This document shows positions 12,787 to 41,538 of a stretch of 42,084 bases of DNA, piece after piece. The position numbers and the translations under genes were made by a program. The stretch comes from Flavobacteriales bacterium (GTDB taxonomy: Bacteria > Bacteroidota > Bacteroidia > Flavobacteriales_G > Salibacteraceae). The notes beneath the pieces were generated by a model. It was not told the DNA's origin, made no database searches, and was given only the letters and a program-made list of their open reading frames with translations. Location: contig JAGQYO010000029.1 of NCBI GenBank assembly GCA_020435995.1, positions 1 to 42,084 of the forward strand. The letters are read 5' to 3'. Positions within the stretch are counted from its first letter, which is position 1. Each line of letters starts with the position of its first letter.

Positions 12787-13110
12787 ATGGCTGAAGATAA
12801 AAAAGAAAAAGATGGTCAAATTAATATTGAATTGACCGAAGAAATTGCTGAAGGCACTTATTCTAACCTTGCGATTATAACCCATAGCACCAGCGAGTTT
12901 GTATTAGACTTCATTAACATTATGCCTGGAGTTCCGAAGGCGAAAGTCAAGTCAAGAATTGTGCTTACCCCACAACACGCCAAAAGACTAATGAATGCCC
13001 TGCACGATAATGTAGAGAAGTTCGAAAATATTCACGGAGAGATTCAGGATACTGGTCATCAAAATCCTCCAATTCCAATGAATTTTGGTGGACCTACGGG
13101 GCAGGCCTAA
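12787..13110 (+). CDS. DUF3467 domain-containing protein
   Basis: A 107-residue cytoplasmic protein without signal peptide or membrane segment. The central part (TYSNLAIITHSTSEFVLDF, IVLTPQHAKRLMNAL) matches the DUF3467 family, which I recall as common in Bacteroidota directly after rpoC; its function is unknown. The C-terminus is Pro/Gly-rich (NPPIPMNFGGPTGQA). The ATG lies only about 17 bases after the rpoC terminator and I see no consensus promoter between them, so expression may depend on terminator read-through or a promoter inside rpoC. Its stop codon overlaps the stop of the convergent patatin gene. Confidence 0.85.
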   Translation: MAEDKKEKDGQINIELTEEIAEGTYSNLAIITHSTSEFVLDFINIMPGVPKAKVKSRIVLTPQHAKRLMNALHDNVEKFENIHGEIQDTGHQNPPIPMNFGGPTGQA

Positions 13111-15416
13111 TAAAGTGCTTTTCGGTTGAATATGATGTAACCGAAGTGAAATAAAAAGGTCAATGGAGTCTTGTTCTCTGGCGCTATCTCAGGGGCATTG
13201 TAATAGTAGTTTAAGCCAACACTCAGAGGCCCAATAGGGGAATTATACACCAAGGTACTATTGGCTATTGAATAAATGCTGTTAAAACCTTCTTCCACGA
13301 TTTGTTGATCGCTGGCATCTCTAATTACTTTCTTGTAGGGTAGAAAAAGATAGGCTTCCACTCTAAAATCAAGGCTTTTTACAATTGATACAATGAATTT
13401 GTGGCCTAAACTCGTGTATTGGTATGCCCTAAATGATTCCAAAAACAAAGTCTTGCTTTCTGGGGTAGGCTGAAATGCAGGAGATTTAAGAATGCTTGCC
13501 GTATAGTTGCTAAGCAATGGAATGTTGCTGAAATAGGAATCAGAGTAAATGCCTAACCTCAATTTTCCTTTTCCCAAGTAATAATAATCTAAGAGTAGTT
13601 TCATATCAATCCATTCATGATGTGCGATTTTATTAGGTAGTGCAGATTTAAAGGTGGTACCTGGGTTGGTCTCTTCATCACCCACTGAATACCTCCCCAT
13701 TACATAAAAACGTAGTCCTTTGTTGGCATATTGAATGGAGTTTTGCGTATTAAAATCAATTTCCAGCAGAGTAGAGTTTGGCCGAAGAGTGGTTAAATCT
13801 GGAATGTCATCAGCAGTAAAGTCTTTGGTTTGATAATATTCGTCATTCATTTCTGCATAGGTATAGTTAGCCGTAATTTTACCCGAATTTCCAAGCGGCA
13901 TTCCAATCCCTAAACCTCCATAACTTTCTTTTTGAATTAAATAACTCGGTCGGTCTTCATCAAAAAAGAAGGATTTGCTTTTGAAATAATTCCAAGAATT
14001 AAATGTGAGAAATGCCTCTATCATAAAGGGAATCCTTGTAGGGAAATCTGCTCGGATGCTTCCCATTGCAGAGTTGTAAAACTTACCGAAATAAGTATTT
14101 CCCTTGAGTAACCAAGCATTTTTACCCCAAGGGCGAAAGGCCATACCAACATAAGCCGTTGAAATGGGTCTGTTCGATACCACTCCTCCAAATTCTGCTT
14201 TAAAAGGTTTTTCTTCGGTGGTATGTGCCGTTACTTCGTACAAGTTTGTTTTTGGGTTGAGTTTCAAAGAAGGAAAAATGGTGCGAATTCGACCATCACT
14301 AAGGGTTCTGAAGTAGTGTTTTCTAAAGTCGCTTAATGAATAGGTTTCAGCTTTGGGCCACAAACTTTTGGAAACGAACCGAGCCTTCCTAGGATTGACA
14401 TTTTCTACGGTTACATTTCCGATTACTTTTTCATGCATTTTGGCTCTAAAGGCCTTTCTGTTGTAATCCAATTGGTTACTAGTTCTTTCAGAAGCAATGT
14501 GTTTCTTGAGTTCGGTAATTTGTCTTAACGCAGTGTGGTATCCTGAATCAACAACTTCTTCCAAGTCTTTAAAATCAAAAGTTTGGTGATTGGTTTTTGG
14601 TTCTATAATCCAACCAGGGGTTTTTAAATCAAAATTGGTTTGACTGATGAGCATGGCCTTCACTTGGCTGATAAGATCATCTGATTTTGGCGGAGGGTCA
14701 TTAGAGGTAACTTTTACACCGATGATATAATCTGGACGGAAGGTATTTGTCATGAGCTCATGCGGAAAGTTGTTGTAAAGCCCACCATCGAATAAAACAC
14801 GGCCATTTACTTCCAACGGTATCAAATAAAATGGGTAAGTGAAGGAAGCTCTGATGGCCGTACCCAAATCACCATCCGAAAAAATATATTCTTCCTTTGA
14901 ATTTATATCGGCAGCTACACATCTGAATGGAATAAACAAGCTATCAAAACAATAATCAGAAGCAGAGGAAGCTCCAGAAAAAAGCTTTAACAACTCAAAA
15001 TCTACGGGTCCGGGTGAAATCAGATTTGTAGGCAAGGAATTGGACAGTGAAAAGTCTTTTGAGATGCCCAAATTGAGCATGGATGCATTTTGCTCATCAT
15101 TTTTAAAATAGAACCTATCCTTTGAATCAATTTCTCCAACTACCAGTTGTTTGAATAAGTCGGATAGAAAGAATTCTTTCATTTCTTGGGTGGTGTAGCC
15201 TGCAGCATACATTGCACCTACAAAGGCTCCCGACGATGTCCCTGTAATGTAGTCAATGGGGATGTTGTTCTCTTCTAAAGCTTGAATTACACCAATGTGA
15301 GCAAGCCCATTGGCACCACCACCACTTAGCACCAATCCTACCTTTTGGGAGAGTAGAAATTTCCCTGGTAACAGAGATAACAGAAGGGTTAAGCTAAATA
15401 AAAGTTTGATCTTCAT
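13107..15416 (-). CDS. Patatin-like phospholipase with C-terminal outer-membrane beta-barrel
   Basis: This 769-residue protein is predicted to be exported and sit in the outer membrane. A signal peptide (residues 1-23, ending LLSQ) precedes a patatin domain: oxyanion segment GGGANG (32-37), nucleophile Ser61 in GTSSG (59-63), and catalytic Asp210 in FDGG. Residues around 330-400 look like a POTRA-like linker. From about 400 to the end alternating hydrophobic strands suggest a BamA/TpsB-type barrel ending in an aromatic residue (ALY). The layout resembles PlpD-type (type Vd) phospholipases, but here the lipase may stay attached. The substrate is unknown. A TAACTTTG element lies 20 bases upstream of the start. 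Convergent with the DUF3467 gene, 4-bp stop overlap. Confidence 0.9.
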   Translation of the reverse strand: MKIKLLFSLTLLLSLLPGKFLLSQKVGLVLSGGGANGLAHIGVIQALEENNIPIDYITGTSSGAFVGAMYAAGYTTQEMKEFFLSDLFKQLVVGEIDSKDRFYFKNDEQNASMLNLGISKDFSLSNSLPTNLISPGPVDFELLKLFSGASSASDYCFDSLFIPFRCVAADINSKEEYIFSDGDLGTAIRASFTYPFYLIPLEVNGRVLFDGGLYNNFPHELMTNTFRPDYIIGVKVTSNDPPPKSDDLISQVKAMLISQTNFDLKTPGWIIEPKTNHQTFDFKDLEEVVDSGYHTALRQITELKKHIASERTSNQLDYNRKAFRAKMHEKVIGNVTVENVNPRKARFVSKSLWPKAETYSLSDFRKHYFRTLSDGRIRTIFPSLKLNPKTNLYEVTAHTTEEKPFKAEFGGVVSNRPISTAYVGMAFRPWGKNAWLLKGNTYFGKFYNSAMGSIRADFPTRIPFMIEAFLTFNSWNYFKSKSFFFDEDRPSYLIQKESYGGLGIGMPLGNSGKITANYTYAEMNDEYYQTKDFTADDIPDLTTLRPNSTLLEIDFNTQNSIQYANKGLRFYVMGRYSVGDEETNPGTTFKSALPNKIAHHEWIDMKLLLDYYYLGKGKLRLGIYSDSYFSNIPLLSNYTASILKSPAFQPTPESKTLFLESFRAYQYTSLGHKFIVSIVKSLDFRVEAYLFLPYKKVIRDASDQQIVEEGFNSIYSIANSTLVYNSPIGPLSVGLNYYYNAPEIAPENKTPLTFLFHFGYIIFNRKALY

Positions 15417-33544: not shown

Positions 33545-36466
33545 ATGGCGTTGAAACATGGTAAATTGAACACTAAAAATCTAAAGGTTTTATTGGTTTT
33601 ATTGGTTTTCCAAATCTTTCTCTATGGGCAGAAACCGTATGAAGCAATTCAGGTGAAAGAGTTGGTAGCTAAGTTCAAAGCAGACCCAAAAGGGCCGTAT
33701 AGGGATATTCGTTGGTTTTGCAAGGATGGCACTACCGTAGGGCCGCAAGAGCGATGTGTTGAAAAAGGGGGTGTGCAACGGGCTCGGTATAAGGATGAGG
33801 TCGTGCAATTGGCGGTAAAACATCATATTTATTTAGGGCAAATTCTTTCCACAACGGATTACAGCGAATTCTGGGATGAAGGGCATCAAAACAGCCGATT
33901 TATTCAATTTCAATTAGAAAGTTATTTACGAGCTTATGACAATGGCTGGGTTAATCGAAAAGCGCAGTACTACAGAGGTGCTTTTCAAATTGAAGACGAG
34001 GAAGAATGGGGGCGGAAATTCTTTGAGTGGCTTTTGAAAGACAAGAAAGTGCTGGAGCAAAAGTTTTTAATTGTCCGACTTGCAGGTAAAGAAATTCCCC
34101 ATGCGAAAACTACAAATACAGCCATGAAAGTCAGGGCATTGTCCAAAGAACTGGCGGATGAATACGCCGCATTTATGAACTTGAGGATTAAAATTCATGG
34201 AAGCCCAGATGAAGGGGACATCAAGCGGGTGGGTGATTTTCTGAGGGCTAATAAATCAAAATTATCAGAGGATCAAGTAACGAAATTTGAATCTCTTATA
34301 GAGCAAATGCGGACGCTTTATAAACCAGTTTCTTTAGAAGAGTTTAAAACCTTGGTGTCGACCTTATCGGATCATTCGCTGGTAAAAATAGCGTTGACTG
34401 AATTTACGAAAGGTTATTCTGAGATAGATGTAAATGATACAAAAAGAAAATGTGAGTTTATGGCCAACCATGCATATTCCCTTCGGCTTATTCTGCTGGG
34501 TGATCTAACGAGTTTAGAAAGGTTGGCTGGCTTAGATGCAGGGTTGAAAATGGAGTCGTTGCTTATGTTGGAATCGTCCAAATGGAAGCCTGCAACTTTG
34601 CTGGAGTTATATGATAAAACAAACATGCTTGCCCGAGCAGCTGCGGCTTTTGGATACCTAGAACTGTGGGAATACAAAGAGCTGTCAAAGGATTTTGATT
34701 TAAAAAACGCTACAGATATTTCGATGGACGGATTAAAGAAGTTGGCTTGGCGCAGTCAGAAAGCTGTGGAGTGGTCAACATCCTCTATTGCTGCCCAATA
34801 CCACAAAGAAATGATGGTTTTCAAGACATTCGAGCCCATAGTAGAAGGTTTTGTTGATGAAAAAGTGAGGGCTTCCATTTTGCTGCAACTTGGAAGTAGT
34901 GCTTCGTATCTTGGAAATTTTGTAGCTAAAAACACCGGTATTTCTCATGAAGTTCCCGCCATCTCAAATCCCAGTTCGATAAGGGGATTGAACCCCGGAT
35001 ATGCCAAAGGAACTCTGATAGTAACCAAAGATATTGGCGATTTGGAAGTTAATTCCAATCACATTTATGTGTTTTCTAATCCACCAGCAGATTTAAAGCC
35101 AGTAGTCGGAATTGCAACTGTTTCAGAGGGAAACTTGGTTTCGCACGTTCAACTGCTCGCGCGAAACTTGGGAATCCCCAATGCAGTTTTGTCTGGGGAA
35201 AATTTGGAAGATTTGAAGAAACTAAACAACACGGAAGTTTTCTATGCCGTATCGCCCGGAGGAAAAGTAGTGCTGAAAAATGCATCGGAGATGACGGCCA
35301 TCGAAAAAGCACTTTTTGCAGTAAAAAAAAGATCGGTTGATATGATCACGGTACCCGTAGATAATATTGAAATAAAATCTCCTAGGCTGCTCAATCTAAA
35401 TGCGGTAAATGCAAGTCATTCAGGAAAAATGTGCGGCCCTAAAGCCGCCAATTTAGGACAACTCAAAAAGAATTTTCCAGAGCAGGTGGTAGAGGGAATT
35501 GTAATTCCTTTTTCTGTGTTCAAGCAACATTTTGATCAATTGATGCCCTTAAGAGAGATTACCTATTGGGAATTTCTAACCCAGACTTTTGAGCGATCCA
35601 GACAGCTAAGTGAAGAGGGTAAATCCGACCTAGAAATCGAAAGTTTTATTCTTAAACAATTATCAGAATTGCGAACAGCTATACTTGCGATGCCGTTAAT
35701 TCCTGAGTTTGTAGCCAGCCTAAAACAAATGTTTAAAGAAGTGCTGGGGGAAGAGTTTGGCGACATTCCCGTGTTTTTAAGAAGCGATACCAACATGGAG
35801 GATTTGAATGATTTTACGGGAGCTGGTCTCAACCTTACACTATTTAATGTGAGGGATAGTGAGAAAATTCTGACGGGCATAAAAGAAGTTTGGGCTTCGC
35901 CTTATAGCGAGAGGAGTTATAAATGGAGGCAGCGTTATTTGCTGAATCCTGAGAATGTATTTCCCTCCATTTTAATTATTCCAAGCGTAGATGTAGACGC
36001 ATCTGGTGTAATGATCACCAAAGGAATTCAATCAGAGAATGCGAGGGCGGTAACAGTCGCCTTTAATCGGGGAGTAGGGGGTGCTGTGGAAGGGCAAATG
36101 AGCGAAATGTGGGAAATTGAGGAAGGCGATAAATTCCAGTTAATAGGCCCATGTAGGGAAAAAACCGCCACCACATTGCCGAAAATCGGAGGCAAGGGAA
36201 TTTCGCAGCACGAATTGAATTCATCGATACTAAGCCCCAAGGAATTAAATGCTATGGCGGCGATGGCTGATCAAATGCGAAAAACACTTCCCATCTCTGG
36301 CATGCAAGGCCCGTATGACGTGGAGCTTGGCTTTAAAAACGGAAAAATGTGGCTTTTTCAAGTTCGGCCCTTTGTTGAAAACAAAAAGGCCTTGTCTTCG
36401 GATTATCTCAATTCTTTAAACCCCGTTATTCAAGAGAAAATGATTCCGCTCTCAACAACTTTGTAA
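33545..36466 (+). CDS. Exported PEP synthase/pyruvate phosphate dikinase-type protein with glucan-water-dikinase-like domain order
   Basis: A 973-residue protein. It begins with a signal peptide (basic n-region, core VLLVLLVFQIFLYG, cleavage near Gly-Gln at about 28). About 450 residues of unknown, mostly helical sequence follow, with two early cysteines (FCKDGTTVGPQERC). Then comes a phosphohistidine swivel domain with H534 in SHVQLLARNLGIPNAVL, and a C-terminal PPDK-type ATP-grasp domain (about 630-955: GPKAANLGQL, FLRSDTNMEDL, FNRGVGGAVEGQ, WLFQVRPF). The swivel precedes the ATP-grasp, and there is no PEP TIM barrel; this is the order of plant glucan water dikinases, not of PEP synthase. 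Export is unexpected for an ATP enzyme. The SxxK hydrolase gene starts two bases downstream. Confidence 0.85.
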   Translation: MALKHGKLNTKNLKVLLVLLVFQIFLYGQKPYEAIQVKELVAKFKADPKGPYRDIRWFCKDGTTVGPQERCVEKGGVQRARYKDEVVQLAVKHHIYLGQILSTTDYSEFWDEGHQNSRFIQFQLESYLRAYDNGWVNRKAQYYRGAFQIEDEEEWGRKFFEWLLKDKKVLEQKFLIVRLAGKEIPHAKTTNTAMKVRALSKELADEYAAFMNLRIKIHGSPDEGDIKRVGDFLRANKSKLSEDQVTKFESLIEQMRTLYKPVSLEEFKTLVSTLSDHSLVKIALTEFTKGYSEIDVNDTKRKCEFMANHAYSLRLILLGDLTSLERLAGLDAGLKMESLLMLESSKWKPATLLELYDKTNMLARAAAAFGYLELWEYKELSKDFDLKNATDISMDGLKKLAWRSQKAVEWSTSSIAAQYHKEMMVFKTFEPIVEGFVDEKVRASILLQLGSSASYLGNFVAKNTGISHEVPAISNPSSIRGLNPGYAKGTLIVTKDIGDLEVNSNHIYVFSNPPADLKPVVGIATVSEGNLVSHVQLLARNLGIPNAVLSGENLEDLKKLNNTEVFYAVSPGGKVVLKNASEMTAIEKALFAVKKRSVDMITVPVDNIEIKSPRLLNLNAVNASHSGKMCGPKAANLGQLKKNFPEQVVEGIVIPFSVFKQHFDQLMPLREITYWEFLTQTFERSRQLSEEGKSDLEIESFILKQLSELRTAILAMPLIPEFVASLKQMFKEVLGEEFGDIPVFLRSDTNMEDLNDFTGAGLNLTLFNVRDSEKILTGIKEVWASPYSERSYKWRQRYLLNPENVFPSILIIPSVDVDASGVMITKGIQSENARAVTVAFNRGVGGAVEGQMSEMWEIEEGDKFQLIGPCREKTATTLPKIGGKGISQHELNSSILSPKELNAMAAMADQMRKTLPISGMQGPYDVELGFKNGKMWLFQVRPFVENKKALSSDYLNSLNPVIQEKMIPLSTTL

Positions 36467-36468
36467 GT

Positions 36469-37710
36469 ATGAAAATAAAATTGTGGATTTCGATAGTTTT
36501 AGTTTTACTGTGTTTTTCATTTACTCCCTATCCGATTGATGGCTACGAAGTAAGTGGTATAAAACGGCTAAAATATGTGCAACTCGTTCAGCAGGGGACT
36601 ATAAAAGGAACCATGCCTATTACTGGCGCCCAAAAGTCGATTAAAGACATCAAACTCCAATTGGTGGGGCGAAATATCTCAGGAATTCCAACTGCTGATG
36701 CTGAGCTTCAAAAGTCATTGAATAGTTTGTTCCCTTCTTTGCACGAGAGTTATTCCATCGCCGTTTTGGATATTTCATTAGGCAAACCAGTTCGCTACGC
36801 ATCTCGAAAGGAAACTGGACAATACCAACCTGGTAGTGTAGGCAAATTGGCTGTTGCTTTTGGTTTGTTTGAAGAGTTGAAAAAGATTTATCCCGATTCG
36901 TATAAAAAAAGGCAGGACCTACTGCGTACAAAGATTGTTAGAGCAGGCAAATGGGCTTTGACGGATGGCCATACCGTACCGTTTTTTGACCTTGAAACAC
37001 AAAAGCTAAGTAAACGAGCTGTTGCTGAGCCTGATGAGTTTTCCTTATTTGAATGGCTCGATCACATGATTTCGGTGAGTAACAATGGGGCGGCTAGCAT
37101 CGTATGGCGCGAAGCAATTTTAATGCGTGCATTTGGTAAATCGTATCCGATGCTAACCGAAGAAAAGGCTACGGAATATTTTAAAAACACACCTAAATCT
37201 CAACTTTCTGAGTTGGCCATAGATGTAGTTAATACGCCTATGCGAAATATGGGAATTACGGAAGACGAATGGAGGTTGGGCACTTTGTTTACTAAAGGCG
37301 CGGGGTCTTACATTCCACCAAAAGGTGGTAGCACAGGTTCGCCCTTGGGGGTTATGAAATTTTTAATTGCGCTTGAAAGTGGAAAAATTGTGGATAAGGA
37401 GAGTAGTCTAGAAATCAAGCGGTTAATGTACCAAACCGATAGAAGAATTAGGTATGCTACGGCACCAGCATTGGCCTCTGCAGCGGTTTATTTTAAAAGT
37501 GGAAGTTTGTATAAATGCCAACCTGAGGAAGGCTATACGTGTGCCAAGTACAAGGGAAATGTTAGAAATTTTATGAATTCTGTGGCGATCGTAGAACATA
37601 CGGATGGCGCTACTTATATGGTAGTTTTAATGAGCAATGTGTTGTACAAAAACTCGGCGAATGACCACCAAGCATTGGCCAGCAGTATCGATCGAATTAT
37701 CAGGAAATAG
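36469..37710 (+). CDS. Exported SxxK serine hydrolase, class A beta-lactamase/penicillin-binding fold
   Basis: A 413-residue protein with an N-terminal signal sequence or anchor (LWISIVLVLLCFSFTPY). The three motifs of the penicillin-interacting fold are present: S123-V-G-K126 (SxxK), S204-N-N206 (SDN-like) and K343-S-G345 (KTG-like). Cys15 in the leader lacks a convincing lipobox. Two cysteines lie near residues 349-357 (CQPEEGYTC). The extended spacing between motifs and the presence of SNN rather than SDN suggest a carboxypeptidase/esterase-like role rather than a resistance enzyme, but this is inference. It starts two bases after the dikinase-like gene stop, so both form one operon. It is convergent with the transporter gene. 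Confidence 0.85.
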   Translation: MKIKLWISIVLVLLCFSFTPYPIDGYEVSGIKRLKYVQLVQQGTIKGTMPITGAQKSIKDIKLQLVGRNISGIPTADAELQKSLNSLFPSLHESYSIAVLDISLGKPVRYASRKETGQYQPGSVGKLAVAFGLFEELKKIYPDSYKKRQDLLRTKIVRAGKWALTDGHTVPFFDLETQKLSKRAVAEPDEFSLFEWLDHMISVSNNGAASIVWREAILMRAFGKSYPMLTEEKATEYFKNTPKSQLSELAIDVVNTPMRNMGITEDEWRLGTLFTKGAGSYIPPKGGSTGSPLGVMKFLIALESGKIVDKESSLEIKRLMYQTDRRIRYATAPALASAAVYFKSGSLYKCQPEEGYTCAKYKGNVRNFMNSVAIVEHTDGATYMVVLMSNVLYKNSANDHQALASSIDRIIRK

Positions 37711-37720
37711 CTAGCTATTT
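37705..37720. terminator. Perfect 16-bp palindrome containing both convergent stop codons
   Basis: AAATAGCTAGCTATTT is self-complementary and holds TAG of the hydrolase gene (37708-37710) and TAG of the transporter gene on the minus strand (37717-37715). On the + strand it is followed by TTCTT after an uninterrupted T-run, so it could act as a weak terminator there; on the minus strand the T-run is shorter. The stem is AT-rich and only about six base pairs outside a CTAG loop. Confidence 0.45.
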
Positions 37721-40531
37721 TTCTTCCAGAGATTTTAAAGTCCAAGAGGCGGCCTCTCTAACGGCGTTGAAAGGGCTATTTAAATGTGGTTTAATCAGGG
37801 GTAAAAACGAGGGATCTTTGATTTCTCGCATGAGGTTAAATACCACCACTTTCAGCCTTGGGTCGCGACCTTTAAGTAAAATCTTAAAACATTTAAATTC
37901 ATCTGGCACCTCCATTTTCAACACGGAAATAGCCTGTTTTGTGATGCCATCCATCATGGCGGTTTCAGCTACAGGAATAAGATATTTTTTAAGGTTAGGT
38001 TCAAGTAGGTTATCTAAAAATTCCACGGAGTGTGACCGAATGTCTTGGTTCACGTTTTTAATGCCCAAATACGCTGGTATCACATCTTCTGGTGGGTATT
38101 TTAAACCTAGCAATCTAAAAATCCTTTCGAGGGTAGCATCGAGTCTGCTTTCAAGGAGAGAAATTAGTTTTTCTCTCAATTCGTACACCTTGTTTAATTG
38201 ATCTTTTGGCAGCAGCTCGTTCTGCTTGTACATCACAGCAAGTATGTTTCTATAAATTTCAATTTCATCGAAAATGAGTTGAAGGAGTCTTTTGTGTTTG
38301 ATTCTTAAAAAAGGAGCATCTTTTTGCATTTGATTTAGGGCTCGGAGTGTTTCCAATCGCAAGGTCACATCTGGTGATTCGAGCAAATTGAACAATGCAT
38401 CTACAGAAGCTTGAAACGGAATACCGGAAAGCACTTCTGGAATCTGCCGAATTACCTCTAGTTCAGTCGTGTGGCTTTTTGAAAAGGCAAGAAGATCGGG
38501 AATAATTCCTAATCCGTAAAATTGGAGGGATGAAATAGAGGCAGCTTTCAGTTCTTTTTCTTTTATCGATGATAAGAGGGTATGTATGTATTTGGGTTGT
38601 AGTGAGTATCCTGCCGCATAAATGGCATTTTTTCTTATTTCTGCGTCCTCGTCCAATAAAGCTTCGTCAATAATCCAATACAAGCTTTCCATTTGAGCCA
38701 GACCAGTGGCTTTTAAGATCATGATTTTGTAATGTATCCGCTCTTCCATCGCATCGCACATATTCATAAATTCTATCTTCATTTGAAGAAGCTCTTTGAA
38801 TTTTAAGTGCTTTTTCATTTCCCCGTTGCTCCTTATTTCCTGCGCGATTCCGAGCATGGCAACGTTGCTTATTTCTGGGTTTTCATGATGCAGATATTTT
38901 TTAATGGTCAACATTTTATTGTCTCTGGTTTGTTTTACAAGTTGAGAAAAAGCGGCAACTTTCATTTCTGAAGTACCAACCTCAATAAACTGTTCCAGCT
39001 TCTCATTAGATACCACCTTGTTGAGAGCGTAAATACAGCGAAATGCCGCCAACTGAACGATGGCTGACGGATGGTCTAACATTTTGTCTACTACCTTATA
39101 AATTCCTTTGTCAGGTACATGTTCAACTTGCTCTAATACCCATTGAATTTGTTTTTCTGTACCTGATTCTAATACACGCTTTAGCCCGCTAATTACAGAT
39201 GTACTTGTGAAATCGGTATAATCTACGTGGACATCCTTTTCTTTTAAGGCTATTTTTTCTCTAAATGAATTGAGGTATTCACGCCTAATTCTAAACGCTA
39301 CCCACAACCATAAAGCGAGGATTACAAGCACCAAAACTGTAACCGCACGAATTGATAAGTCAAATCCATTTATTAGAAAAATAAGAAGTAATCCACTGAT
39401 TCCGGTCGCTGACATATCGATAAATACATCTATAAAACTTTTGGTCTGACTTTTTATATTTTCTGGAATGGGCAGAGCCATGAGTTCTGTTGCTGCTTTG
39501 TTGATCGATTGTTTTACAGAAATATCCCACATTTTGAGGAATATAACTATCGATAGGAAGGGGGCCACCATAAGCATGATTGAGCCTAAAACGAGACCTC
39601 CAGGTAAAATCAGTAAGGAGGAACCAACACCATATTTACCTACTACACGATGCGTAATAAAAAGCTGAATGATAAGCGAAATCACATTAAATGTAGAAAA
39701 CCAAAATCCAAAAAAACCAGTGAGTTCACTGGTATTGCTATAAGTTTGAGCTGCTATACTACTAAACTGGAACTCAACTAGTTTAGCAACGATTACACTT
39801 AAACCTATGATTAGGGCCAAAAAGGTCAAGTGTTTGGATTTGCTAATAAGCCAAATGGGATGTTCTCCTCGTTCTGGTAATCGCTTCGATTGTTGGTATC
39901 TGTTGAGGGTTTTAATATGTTTTTTCCAAATCGTATTATAAACTGGAATGCAAGCAGCTAACGCTAAACCAGCAACCCAGAGAAGTTTTGGGCCATCTAT
40001 GAACGATGAGAGGATTGAAGTTACATATCCTCCAGCTACACCGCCGGCAATTGCACCAGCACCTATCAATCCTAATAATCGTTTTGCTTCACGCGGGTTG
40101 AAGGCCAAATTGGCCATTACCCAAAATTGTGATACAACCAGCACTCCGAAATTTGCAGTAGCCACATAGAAAATGTACAGAACGGGCTTTACAGCAATTT
40201 GAAAAGAAAGGAGGAGAGAGACTGTAATTAATGAAATTATAGCGATATATAGCGTAAGGGTGTTTACCCTACGAAGGGATCTCCCGTGTAGGGCTTTGGA
40301 ATAAAGTGTAGATACAGCCATAGCAAATATGGCCACCAATACAAATACTAAGGGGAGTTTTTCTATACCTATTACGGCTAAGAATTGCGCGTTAACAACG
40401 GGCTTAATGATGAGAAGAGCAAAAACAATTAGGAAAATATTGAGTTGCATAAGGAACACCCTTTGGTATTCCCCGTCTCTTAAATCCCAGGTTTTTCGAA
40501 TAAAATCTTTTGCTATTTCTCTGTAGTTCAT
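37715..40531 (-). CDS. NTT-type nucleotide transporter (ADP/ATP carrier-like, MFS fold) fused to HEAT repeats
   Basis: A 938-residue inner-membrane protein. Residues about 22-410 hold roughly ten to twelve transmembrane helices with the fold of the ATP/ADP antiporter (Npt/TLC) family, such as VFLMQLNIFLIVFALLIIKP and FNPREAKRLLGLIGAGAIAG and SIVIFLKMWDISVKQSINKA. From about 440 to 938 the sequence is a run of HEAT-like helical repeats (HPSAIVQLAAFRCIYALNK, DEDAEIRKNAIYAAGYS, VTLRLETLRALNQM), presumably cytosolic. NTT-HEAT fusions are known from free-living bacteria; their substrates are not established. The gene starts 14 bases after the second SxxK hydrolase gene on the same strand. Confidence 0.82.
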   Translation of the reverse strand: MNYREIAKDFIRKTWDLRDGEYQRVFLMQLNIFLIVFALLIIKPVVNAQFLAVIGIEKLPLVFVLVAIFAMAVSTLYSKALHGRSLRRVNTLTLYIAIISLITVSLLLSFQIAVKPVLYIFYVATANFGVLVVSQFWVMANLAFNPREAKRLLGLIGAGAIAGGVAGGYVTSILSSFIDGPKLLWVAGLALAACIPVYNTIWKKHIKTLNRYQQSKRLPERGEHPIWLISKSKHLTFLALIIGLSVIVAKLVEFQFSSIAAQTYSNTSELTGFFGFWFSTFNVISLIIQLFITHRVVGKYGVGSSLLILPGGLVLGSIMLMVAPFLSIVIFLKMWDISVKQSINKAATELMALPIPENIKSQTKSFIDVFIDMSATGISGLLLIFLINGFDLSIRAVTVLVLVILALWLWVAFRIRREYLNSFREKIALKEKDVHVDYTDFTSTSVISGLKRVLESGTEKQIQWVLEQVEHVPDKGIYKVVDKMLDHPSAIVQLAAFRCIYALNKVVSNEKLEQFIEVGTSEMKVAAFSQLVKQTRDNKMLTIKKYLHHENPEISNVAMLGIAQEIRSNGEMKKHLKFKELLQMKIEFMNMCDAMEERIHYKIMILKATGLAQMESLYWIIDEALLDEDAEIRKNAIYAAGYSLQPKYIHTLLSSIKEKELKAASISSLQFYGLGIIPDLLAFSKSHTTELEVIRQIPEVLSGIPFQASVDALFNLLESPDVTLRLETLRALNQMQKDAPFLRIKHKRLLQLIFDEIEIYRNILAVMYKQNELLPKDQLNKVYELREKLISLLESRLDATLERIFRLLGLKYPPEDVIPAYLGIKNVNQDIRSHSVEFLDNLLEPNLKKYLIPVAETAMMDGITKQAISVLKMEVPDEFKCFKILLKGRDPRLKVVVFNLMREIKDPSFLPLIKPHLNSPFNAVREAASWTLKSLEEK

Positions 40532-40545
40532 TATAGAACTTAGCC

Positions 40546-41538
40546 TTAAACAGGTTTTAATCTACGATCAATTTCCTTAGATAATGCACGCATGAGTTTT
40601 TCACCTTCACCATCTTCACACATGGCTACAATAATATACCTTCTCCAATCAGGTCCCCAAATTAATGCGGAGTCGGCATGAAAATCTTTCCATGAACCAG
40701 ATTTTCTAAAAACTTTAGCCTTAGGAGCCACTTGGTCCATGGTATTCACAAACTTGTGATGCAGTTCAGGATTTCCCAAATAGCCAAGCATTTCTTTAGA
40801 TCGATCAAAGGTTACTAATTGTCCAAAAGCAAGGAGATAATAGTACCTACACACTTGTGTTGGACTTGCCGCATGGCTGATGTTTTTCATCGGATCGCCT
40901 CTTCTTGGGCCTGTGCTGGCATATCTTTTTCCAACCCAAAGTCCACCTCCTTTCTCTTGGTCGTAAAATTCGTACCTAGGGTCTTGCATTACTTTCTGGA
41001 TTCTGTCCAACCCCACTATATCAATCACTTTGGTAGTAGAGGCGTTGTTGCTTTTTGCAATCATTTGTCTTAAGTCTTGTTGCAATTCAGGGGTTTCTTC
41101 TAAATCACCTTTTTCCATGGCATCAACTGCGGTGAGCAATACTGCAATTTTTGGCAAACTGGCTGCGTACATCATGTTATCGCCATTTTTATGGGCAAAT
41201 TTCACAGCGTAAGGATTTCTCATATCCACCAATCCAATTCCCAATTTTTTGTTGGCAACCAATCTTTTCCATTTTGGGTTTTTGTTTACAACGTCATCGA
41301 GTATATGCTGTAGCCGTGGATTTTCTAATTCTCGCAAAGGCTTTATGAGAGAATCTGGAACCCGTAAAGGAAGTTCGCTAAGGCTGAGAGGTTCTGGAGC
41401 AATTGGTTCTTCATCAAACAAACCCAACAGGTATTTGGCTCCCATTCCACCGCCGAGAAGCAGAAGAACAACCATCGAAAACGTTCTTAATTTACTTCCC
41501 ATTTTTGGAATAAATATGCGTTGAACCGATAGAATCAT
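40546..41538 (-). CDS. Membrane-anchored SxxK serine hydrolase, class A beta-lactamase fold
   Basis: A 330-residue protein with an N-terminal transmembrane anchor (about 22-40: MVVLLLLGGGMGAKYLLG). Motifs of the penicillin-interacting fold: S127-L-P-K130 (SxxK), S163-N-N165 (SDN-like) and K279-S-G281 (KTG-like, in RKSGSW). Numbering is from the ATG at 41538; an in-frame ATG at 41502 (MGSKLRTFS) is an equally good start. No Glu166-type omega loop of true class A beta-lactamases was identified with confidence, so peptidase or esterase activity on cell-wall material is more likely than antibiotic resistance. It shares motif choices (SNN, KSG) with the hydrolase at 36469-37710 but little overall sequence. 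Confidence 0.85.
   Translation of the reverse strand: MILSVQRIFIPKMGSKLRTFSMVVLLLLGGGMGAKYLLGLFDEEPIAPEPLSLSELPLRVPDSLIKPLRELENPRLQHILDDVVNKNPKWKRLVANKKLGIGLVDMRNPYAVKFAHKNGDNMMYAASLPKIAVLLTAVDAMEKGDLEETPELQQDLRQMIAKSNNASTTKVIDIVGLDRIQKVMQDPRYEFYDQEKGGGLWVGKRYASTGPRRGDPMKNISHAASPTQVCRYYYLLAFGQLVTFDRSKEMLGYLGNPELHHKFVNTMDQVAPKAKVFRKSGSWKDFHADSALIWGPDWRRYIIVAMCEDGEGEKLMRALSKEIDRRLKPV

Follow-up and report, generated by a model that had tools for sequence, protein, structure and literature searches.

A predicted exported dikinase linked to an ATP/ADP-carrier-family protein and two serine enzymes in Bacteroidota: a possible phosphotransfer module outside the cytoplasm

Gene content of the locus

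Here we analysed a stretch of 42,084 nucleotides (the window) from a Bacteroidota genome assembled to 3.76 Mb in 207 contigs, and followed up one gene in it, located at 33545..36466 on the forward strand. This ORF of 973 amino acids has an ATG start, is single-copy in the genome and matches the Pfam family PPDK_N (PF01326; E 8e-25); we refer to its product, a putative exported swivel-first dikinase, as the dikinase. Two bases past its stop codon begins the gene for serine enzyme 1 (36469..37710, forward strand, 413 amino acids), a secreted SxxK protein of the Beta-lactamase2 fold (PF13354, E 1.2e-8) with the motifs SVGK, SNN and KSG and an invariant YPIDG downstream of its hydrophobic N-terminus. 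Two further genes lie on the opposite strand and face this pair. The first (37715..40531, reverse strand, 938 amino acids), called NTT-HEAT here, fuses a membrane domain of the NTT (TLC, ATP/ADP carrier) family (PF03219, E 4e-7, 29.6 bits against a cut-off of 21) to HEAT repeats; its best transporter match in the PDB is the chloroplast ADP,ATP carrier 9j3j (AtNTT1, E 8e-9), and its membrane domain also matches CpNTT1 (9j3n). The second encodes serine enzyme 2 (40546..41538, reverse strand, 330 amino acids), an SxxK protein with a hydrophobic N-terminal segment, a Beta-lactamase2 match (PF13354, E 4.6e-17) and the motifs SLPK, SNN and KSG. The SxxK, SxN and K(S/T)G motifs are kept in both serine enzymes across 22 and 21 members, respectively. 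The two serine enzymes and the carrier did not figure in the earlier note on this DNA, which was concerned with the dikinase.

Searches of the PDB with the serine enzymes returned nothing useful, the dikinase and the serine enzymes were unmatched in defence libraries, and a scan for promoters and terminators found sites no more frequently than in shuffled sequence. Elsewhere in the window, at 13107-15416 on the reverse strand, an exported patatin-like protein is encoded downstream of rpoC (motifs GGGANGLAHIG and GTSSG, recognised by eye).

Export signal, domain order and catalytic residues of the dikinase

The first 28 residues of the dikinase (33545..33628, forward strand) resemble a signal peptide in a hydrophobicity scan, with a charged n-region followed by a hydrophobic stretch that ends in FLYG before a Q, cleavage presumably falling between LLVLLVFQIFLYG and QKP. 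The same pattern was found in 22 of the 23 full-length members of the family, and in the lone exception (L040) the ORF start is over-extended and the hydrophobic stretch is located further in. The signal-like N-terminus, claimed as a signal peptide in the earlier note, is shared across the family and strongly suggests that the dikinase is sent out of the cytoplasm.

Structure models place behind this signal an N-terminal domain (residues 30-466; 33632..34942, forward strand) made of a small beta part, holding the Cys residues C59 and C71, and then helices. The earlier note had called this part unrecognisable and so it proved: modelled alone (pLDDT 81.8) it gave no Foldseek match with E < 0.09, the best candidate of a second look was a cyclic beta-1,2-glucan synthase domain (Z 9.7, rmsd 11.6), and the remaining ones were helical-repeat or 14-3-3 proteins with Z < 8, all of which we judged uninformative. 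By analogy with rifampin phosphotransferase (RPH) and PEP synthase (PEPS), the domain may be the one that holds the acceptor substrate.

The swivel (phosphohistidine) domain follows at about residues 476-591 (34970..35317, forward strand), with the putative catalytic H534 in GNLVSHVQLLARNLGIPN. It was recognised by a profile match to the PEPS swivel; the Pfam match to PEP-utilizers (PF00391) is sub-threshold in the window protein (residues 518-556, E 0.036) and weak in all 11 of the family members searched, the best E of 0.007 being below the cut-off too. The ATP-grasp domain comes last (residues 611-947; 35375..36385, forward strand), carrying K633, R746, T765, E927, Q939 and R941, and the PPDK_N match covers residues 630-950. 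The best profile match among PDB chains was PEP synthase 8a8e (E 1.9e-27), to the ATP-grasp domain of which (105-366) dikinase residues 697-951 align, while residues 476-557 align to its swivel (383-467). Because the first domain of a single PEPS chain is thus matched by the C-terminal part of the dikinase and the second by its middle, the domain order is inverted, bearing out the order proposed in the earlier note. In the AlphaFold model (mean pLDDT 76.7) residues 611-947 superpose on the ATP-grasp domain of RPH (5hv1) with Z 33.1 and rmsd 2.3 A over 306 residues, and on 2ols with Z 29.8; the swivel part 512-550 is of low confidence. A PEP/pyruvate-binding TIM barrel, also said to be missing, was matched by no Pfam family.

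The predicted catalytic residues are intact throughout the family. Identity to the window protein is mostly 41-49% across the 23 full-length members, and H534, K633, R746, T765, E927, Q939 and R941 are invariant in all of them, as are C59 and C71. In RPH, mutagenesis has shown that Lys22, Arg117 and Thr136 matter and that the phosphate is carried on His825 (PMC4844700); these positions correspond to K633, R746, T765 and H534 of the window dikinase. ATP binding and a phosphohistidine relay are therefore well supported as predicted properties of the dikinase. The ATP-grasp and swivel domains might instead have been repurposed as an envelope sensor of ATP or another ligand, or as a scaffold, without dikinase turnover. 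Doubtful ATP supply for an exported protein and the low-confidence model of the swivel would fit that reading, but loss of catalysis would not predict that phosphohistidine and ATP residues stay fully conserved in 23 divergent sequences, and we regard it as improbable.

Relation to known dikinases

The dikinase shares with RPH and with PEPS/PPDK the ATP-grasp fold, the catalytic Lys, Arg and Thr and the swivel His, so that a phosphorelay in which ATP is converted to AMP and Pi would be expected. A PPDK-type ATP-grasp domain with its nucleotide-binding residues and a swivel with the catalytic His, the marks of a PPDK/PEPS-type dikinase, are both present. The dikinase differs from RPH and PEPS in having the swivel first, an export signal and a new helical N-terminal domain, and it lacks both the TIM barrel of PEPS/PPDK and the RIF-binding domain of RPH. 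We consequently rejected PEP synthase or PPDK proper (inverted order, no barrel match in Pfam), and no better whole-length match to PEPS, such as the earlier note would have counted against its reading, was found. Nor did the homologues lack the export signal or lose H534 or the ATP-binding residues, the other two findings that the note had named as refuting it. Rifampin phosphotransferase was rejected on the inverted order and on the NCBIfam model RIF_Ptrans_rph, which scored 50 bits against a cut-off of 999.

In plant glucan, water dikinases (GWD, and PWD) the swivel precedes a C-terminal ATP-grasp domain, and the earlier note had stressed this likeness. Part of that comparison stood: the dikinase has the same order, the SHV...ARN motif and no TIM barrel. 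A specific kinship did not emerge, as the GWD phosphohistidine model (GWD1_pHisD, PF22973) matched just one of 11 members, with a non-significant E of 0.055, and no starch-binding module (CBM45 or CBM20) was matched in Pfam at E up to 5 in the same number of members. The dikinase further differs from GWD/PWD by its signal peptide and its N-terminal helical domain, and we view the likeness as a resemblance that may be convergent. That the protein is a true GWD phosphorylating secreted or algal alpha-glucan, an idea that gains some appeal from the many hosts that are polysaccharide-degrading marine Bacteroidota, seems to us very improbable given the PF22973 result, an N-terminal domain that matches no carbohydrate module, and partners that are SxxK enzymes rather than glycosidases or SusCD. 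No GWD structure was found in the literature searched (PMC12892837).

A second, shorter exported family of about 625 amino acids occurs at seven loci (L002, L003, L024-L028) and at L042:7884-9761 (reverse strand) and L041:2245-4137 (reverse strand). Like the dikinase it is found in Bacteroidota and has a signal peptide and a swivel followed by PPDK_N; unlike it, it has a different N-terminal part and no cassette neighbours, and identity between the two is about 25-29%. Its match to GWD1_pHisD (E 0.002-0.02) is weak and below the cut-off, if somewhat better than that of the dikinase. Our literature search, for which most subscription journals were outside reach, found no description of the dikinase family or of its link to NTT proteins.

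Conservation and co-occurrence of the four genes

Full-length homologues of the dikinase are present in 13 of 395 Bacteroidota genomes, belonging to 12 genera (five more genomes in this tally have the short family only), and in 12 named loci, including Lewinella, Neolewinella, Aquimarina and Nonlabens; Aquimarina brevivitae and Nonlabens ulvanivorans are examples of species with the cassette. In two Nonlabens assemblies (L054:7992-10900 and L056:7977-10914, both forward strand) the frame is broken into two ORFs, through a frameshift or a sequencing error. Among 42 genomes of the order to which the window belongs, the full-length protein is encoded in one alone, that of the window itself, and such a patchy distribution is consistent with horizontal transfer or with repeated loss.

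The set of dikinase, serine enzyme 1, NTT-HEAT and serine enzyme 2 recurs across the loci compared. In each of the 22 loci where they are linked, dikinase and serine enzyme 1 share a strand, and the gap between them is -4 to +23 bases, except for one over-extended ORF model. Clustering of all neighbouring ORFs identified no fifth conserved gene save between close relatives. Searching with each protein, we found the dikinase and the two serine enzymes in the identical 13 genomes among the 395, and in one of these (G219) all four genes are present though unlinked, one being on another contig. The chance of such an identical set is about 1e-24 if genomes are assumed to be independent, which they are not; counted by genus (12 of 171) it is about 1e-18, kinship being uncorrected. 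The genomes with the set span seven families, most members of which are without it. NTT proteins of the cassette type are present in 11 of the 13 dikinase genomes and in none of the 382 others; the two dikinase genomes that lack them (G224 and G240) have more distant NTT relatives, the sole NTT of G224 being a distant, HEAT-less protein encoded far from the cassette.

The four genes are thus tightly linked, both in the genome and phyletically. The least probable of the readings considered here is that a secreted RPH-like antibiotic-inactivating phosphotransferase forms a resistance island with two beta-lactamase-like enzymes. The ATP-grasp domain is structurally closest to that of RPH (Z 33), the partners have a beta-lactamase fold and the distribution is patchy. 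The sets are nevertheless chromosomal and conserved over deep divergence, the order departs from that of RPH with no RIF-binding domain, and neither serine enzyme matched class A beta-lactamase models above cut-off; among 72,556 plasmids there was no close match to the dikinase, only ATP-grasp-level similarity of less than 30% identity to PEPS-like genes.

A possible ATP-fuelled module and the question of its ATP supply

On the usual view the periplasm contains no ATP, and envelope chemistry is hence thought to use pre-activated substrates or other energy. The earlier note had pointed out that an exported dikinase would need an extracytoplasmic source of ATP or a different phosphodonor, unless its fold has been repurposed; for an ATP source the NTT-family carrier gene of the cassette now offers a candidate. 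We propose, with about as much belief as doubt, that the four genes form an extracytoplasmic phosphotransfer module fuelled by ATP. In this module NTT-HEAT, in the inner membrane, would bring ATP into the periplasm and take back the spent nucleotide. Within the exported dikinase, the ATP-grasp domain would convert ATP to AMP and Pi and transfer the beta-phosphate onto His534 in the swivel, which would then deliver it to an acceptor bound in the N-terminal helical domain. Both SxxK serine enzymes would act outside the cytoplasm on the substrate of the dikinase or on its product, a shared substrate being what the perfect co-occurrence suggests to us. SxxK enzymes commonly act on envelope polymers, and our guess for the common target is on that ground an envelope component, either peptidoglycan-like or an exopolymer. 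Because an exported dikinase is locked phyletically to a protein of the ATP/ADP carrier family, ATP-driven chemistry in the envelope becomes directly testable.

The main reservation concerns the carrier. Like plastid and parasite NTT carriers, NTT-HEAT has a TLC membrane domain, and its fusion to HEAT repeats is that of a published NTT-HEAT class, the functions of which in free-living bacteria have been described as unknown (PMC5381601); were our proposal true, it would give these fusions a role. Transport by AtNTT1 of Arabidopsis needs four charged residues, K155, E245, E385 and K527, of which K527 is thought to be important for nucleoside triphosphates (PMC4256464). Unlike AtNTT1, the cassette NTT, a fixed partner of an exported dikinase, has V, I or A for K155, A, S or G for E245 and T or G for K527, E385 alone being kept as D or E. 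With three of the four residues altered, the substrate may not be ATP, and ATP transport is suggested by the family and the genomic context instead of by the binding site.

An active dikinase could accordingly stand beside a carrier of something else, be it another nucleotide, AMP, phosphate, or a precursor or product of the pathway, with periplasmic ATP arriving by other means or with a phosphodonor other than ATP. The lost AtNTT1 residues, K527 in particular, and the uncharacterised functions of NTT-HEAT proteins both lend themselves to this alternative, which we consider unlikely but serious; against it, the fully conserved ATP-grasp site makes a nucleotide donor likely, and the exported putative phosphotransferases that are paired with NTT genes come from two unrelated families. 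The supply of ATP to the periplasm by NTT-HEAT is thus supported by two independent genomic associations and weakened by the altered binding residues.

A second NTT-HEAT class and a kinase-motif lipoprotein

The second of these associations comes from an independent test, in which relatives of NTT-HEAT were examined in genomes without the dikinase. A second NTT-HEAT class, which shares 26-29% identity with the cassette NTT and has R at K155 and Q at K527, was found in 10 genomes, and in all 10 of them it is accompanied by a lipoprotein of about 570-600 amino acids that was present in only one of the 42 other genomes searched. The lipoprotein gene (for example L063:10951-12657, forward; L058:2627-4363, reverse; L062:3719-5404, reverse; and L087:4878-6728, forward) adjoins an NTT gene and usually also a gene for an Omp85-family protein. 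Motifs resembling those of kinases are invariant in its product, namely IKxD with PEL after it, NDxDRRxxNT and D(F/M)GxTLG; together with weak Pfam matches to HipA-like kinases (E 0.03-0.08), they make it look like an undescribed exported kinase.

In the one extra genome (G413) the lipoprotein is paired with a cassette NTT, and in G240, which lacks the cassette NTT, the dikinase is paired with the second class, as though either carrier could take the place of the other. The pairing of second-class NTT and lipoprotein supports a role in ATP supply for the NTTs that stand beside exported phosphotransferases. Extending this to a general scheme in Bacteroidota is a tentative step about which we have somewhat more doubt than belief. 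In such a scheme NTT carriers would move ATP outward through the inner membrane for use by exported phosphotransferases with two or more unrelated folds, represented by the swivel-first dikinase and, elsewhere, by the HipA/Fam20-like lipoprotein. Other NTT classes in the phylum adjoin signalling or unrelated genes, so a role in ATP supply would not hold for every NTT-HEAT protein. In L063 the gene for the putative kinase lipoprotein has as its neighbour one for a metallophosphoesterase lipoprotein (L063:12679-13830, forward strand), possibly an opposing phosphatase.
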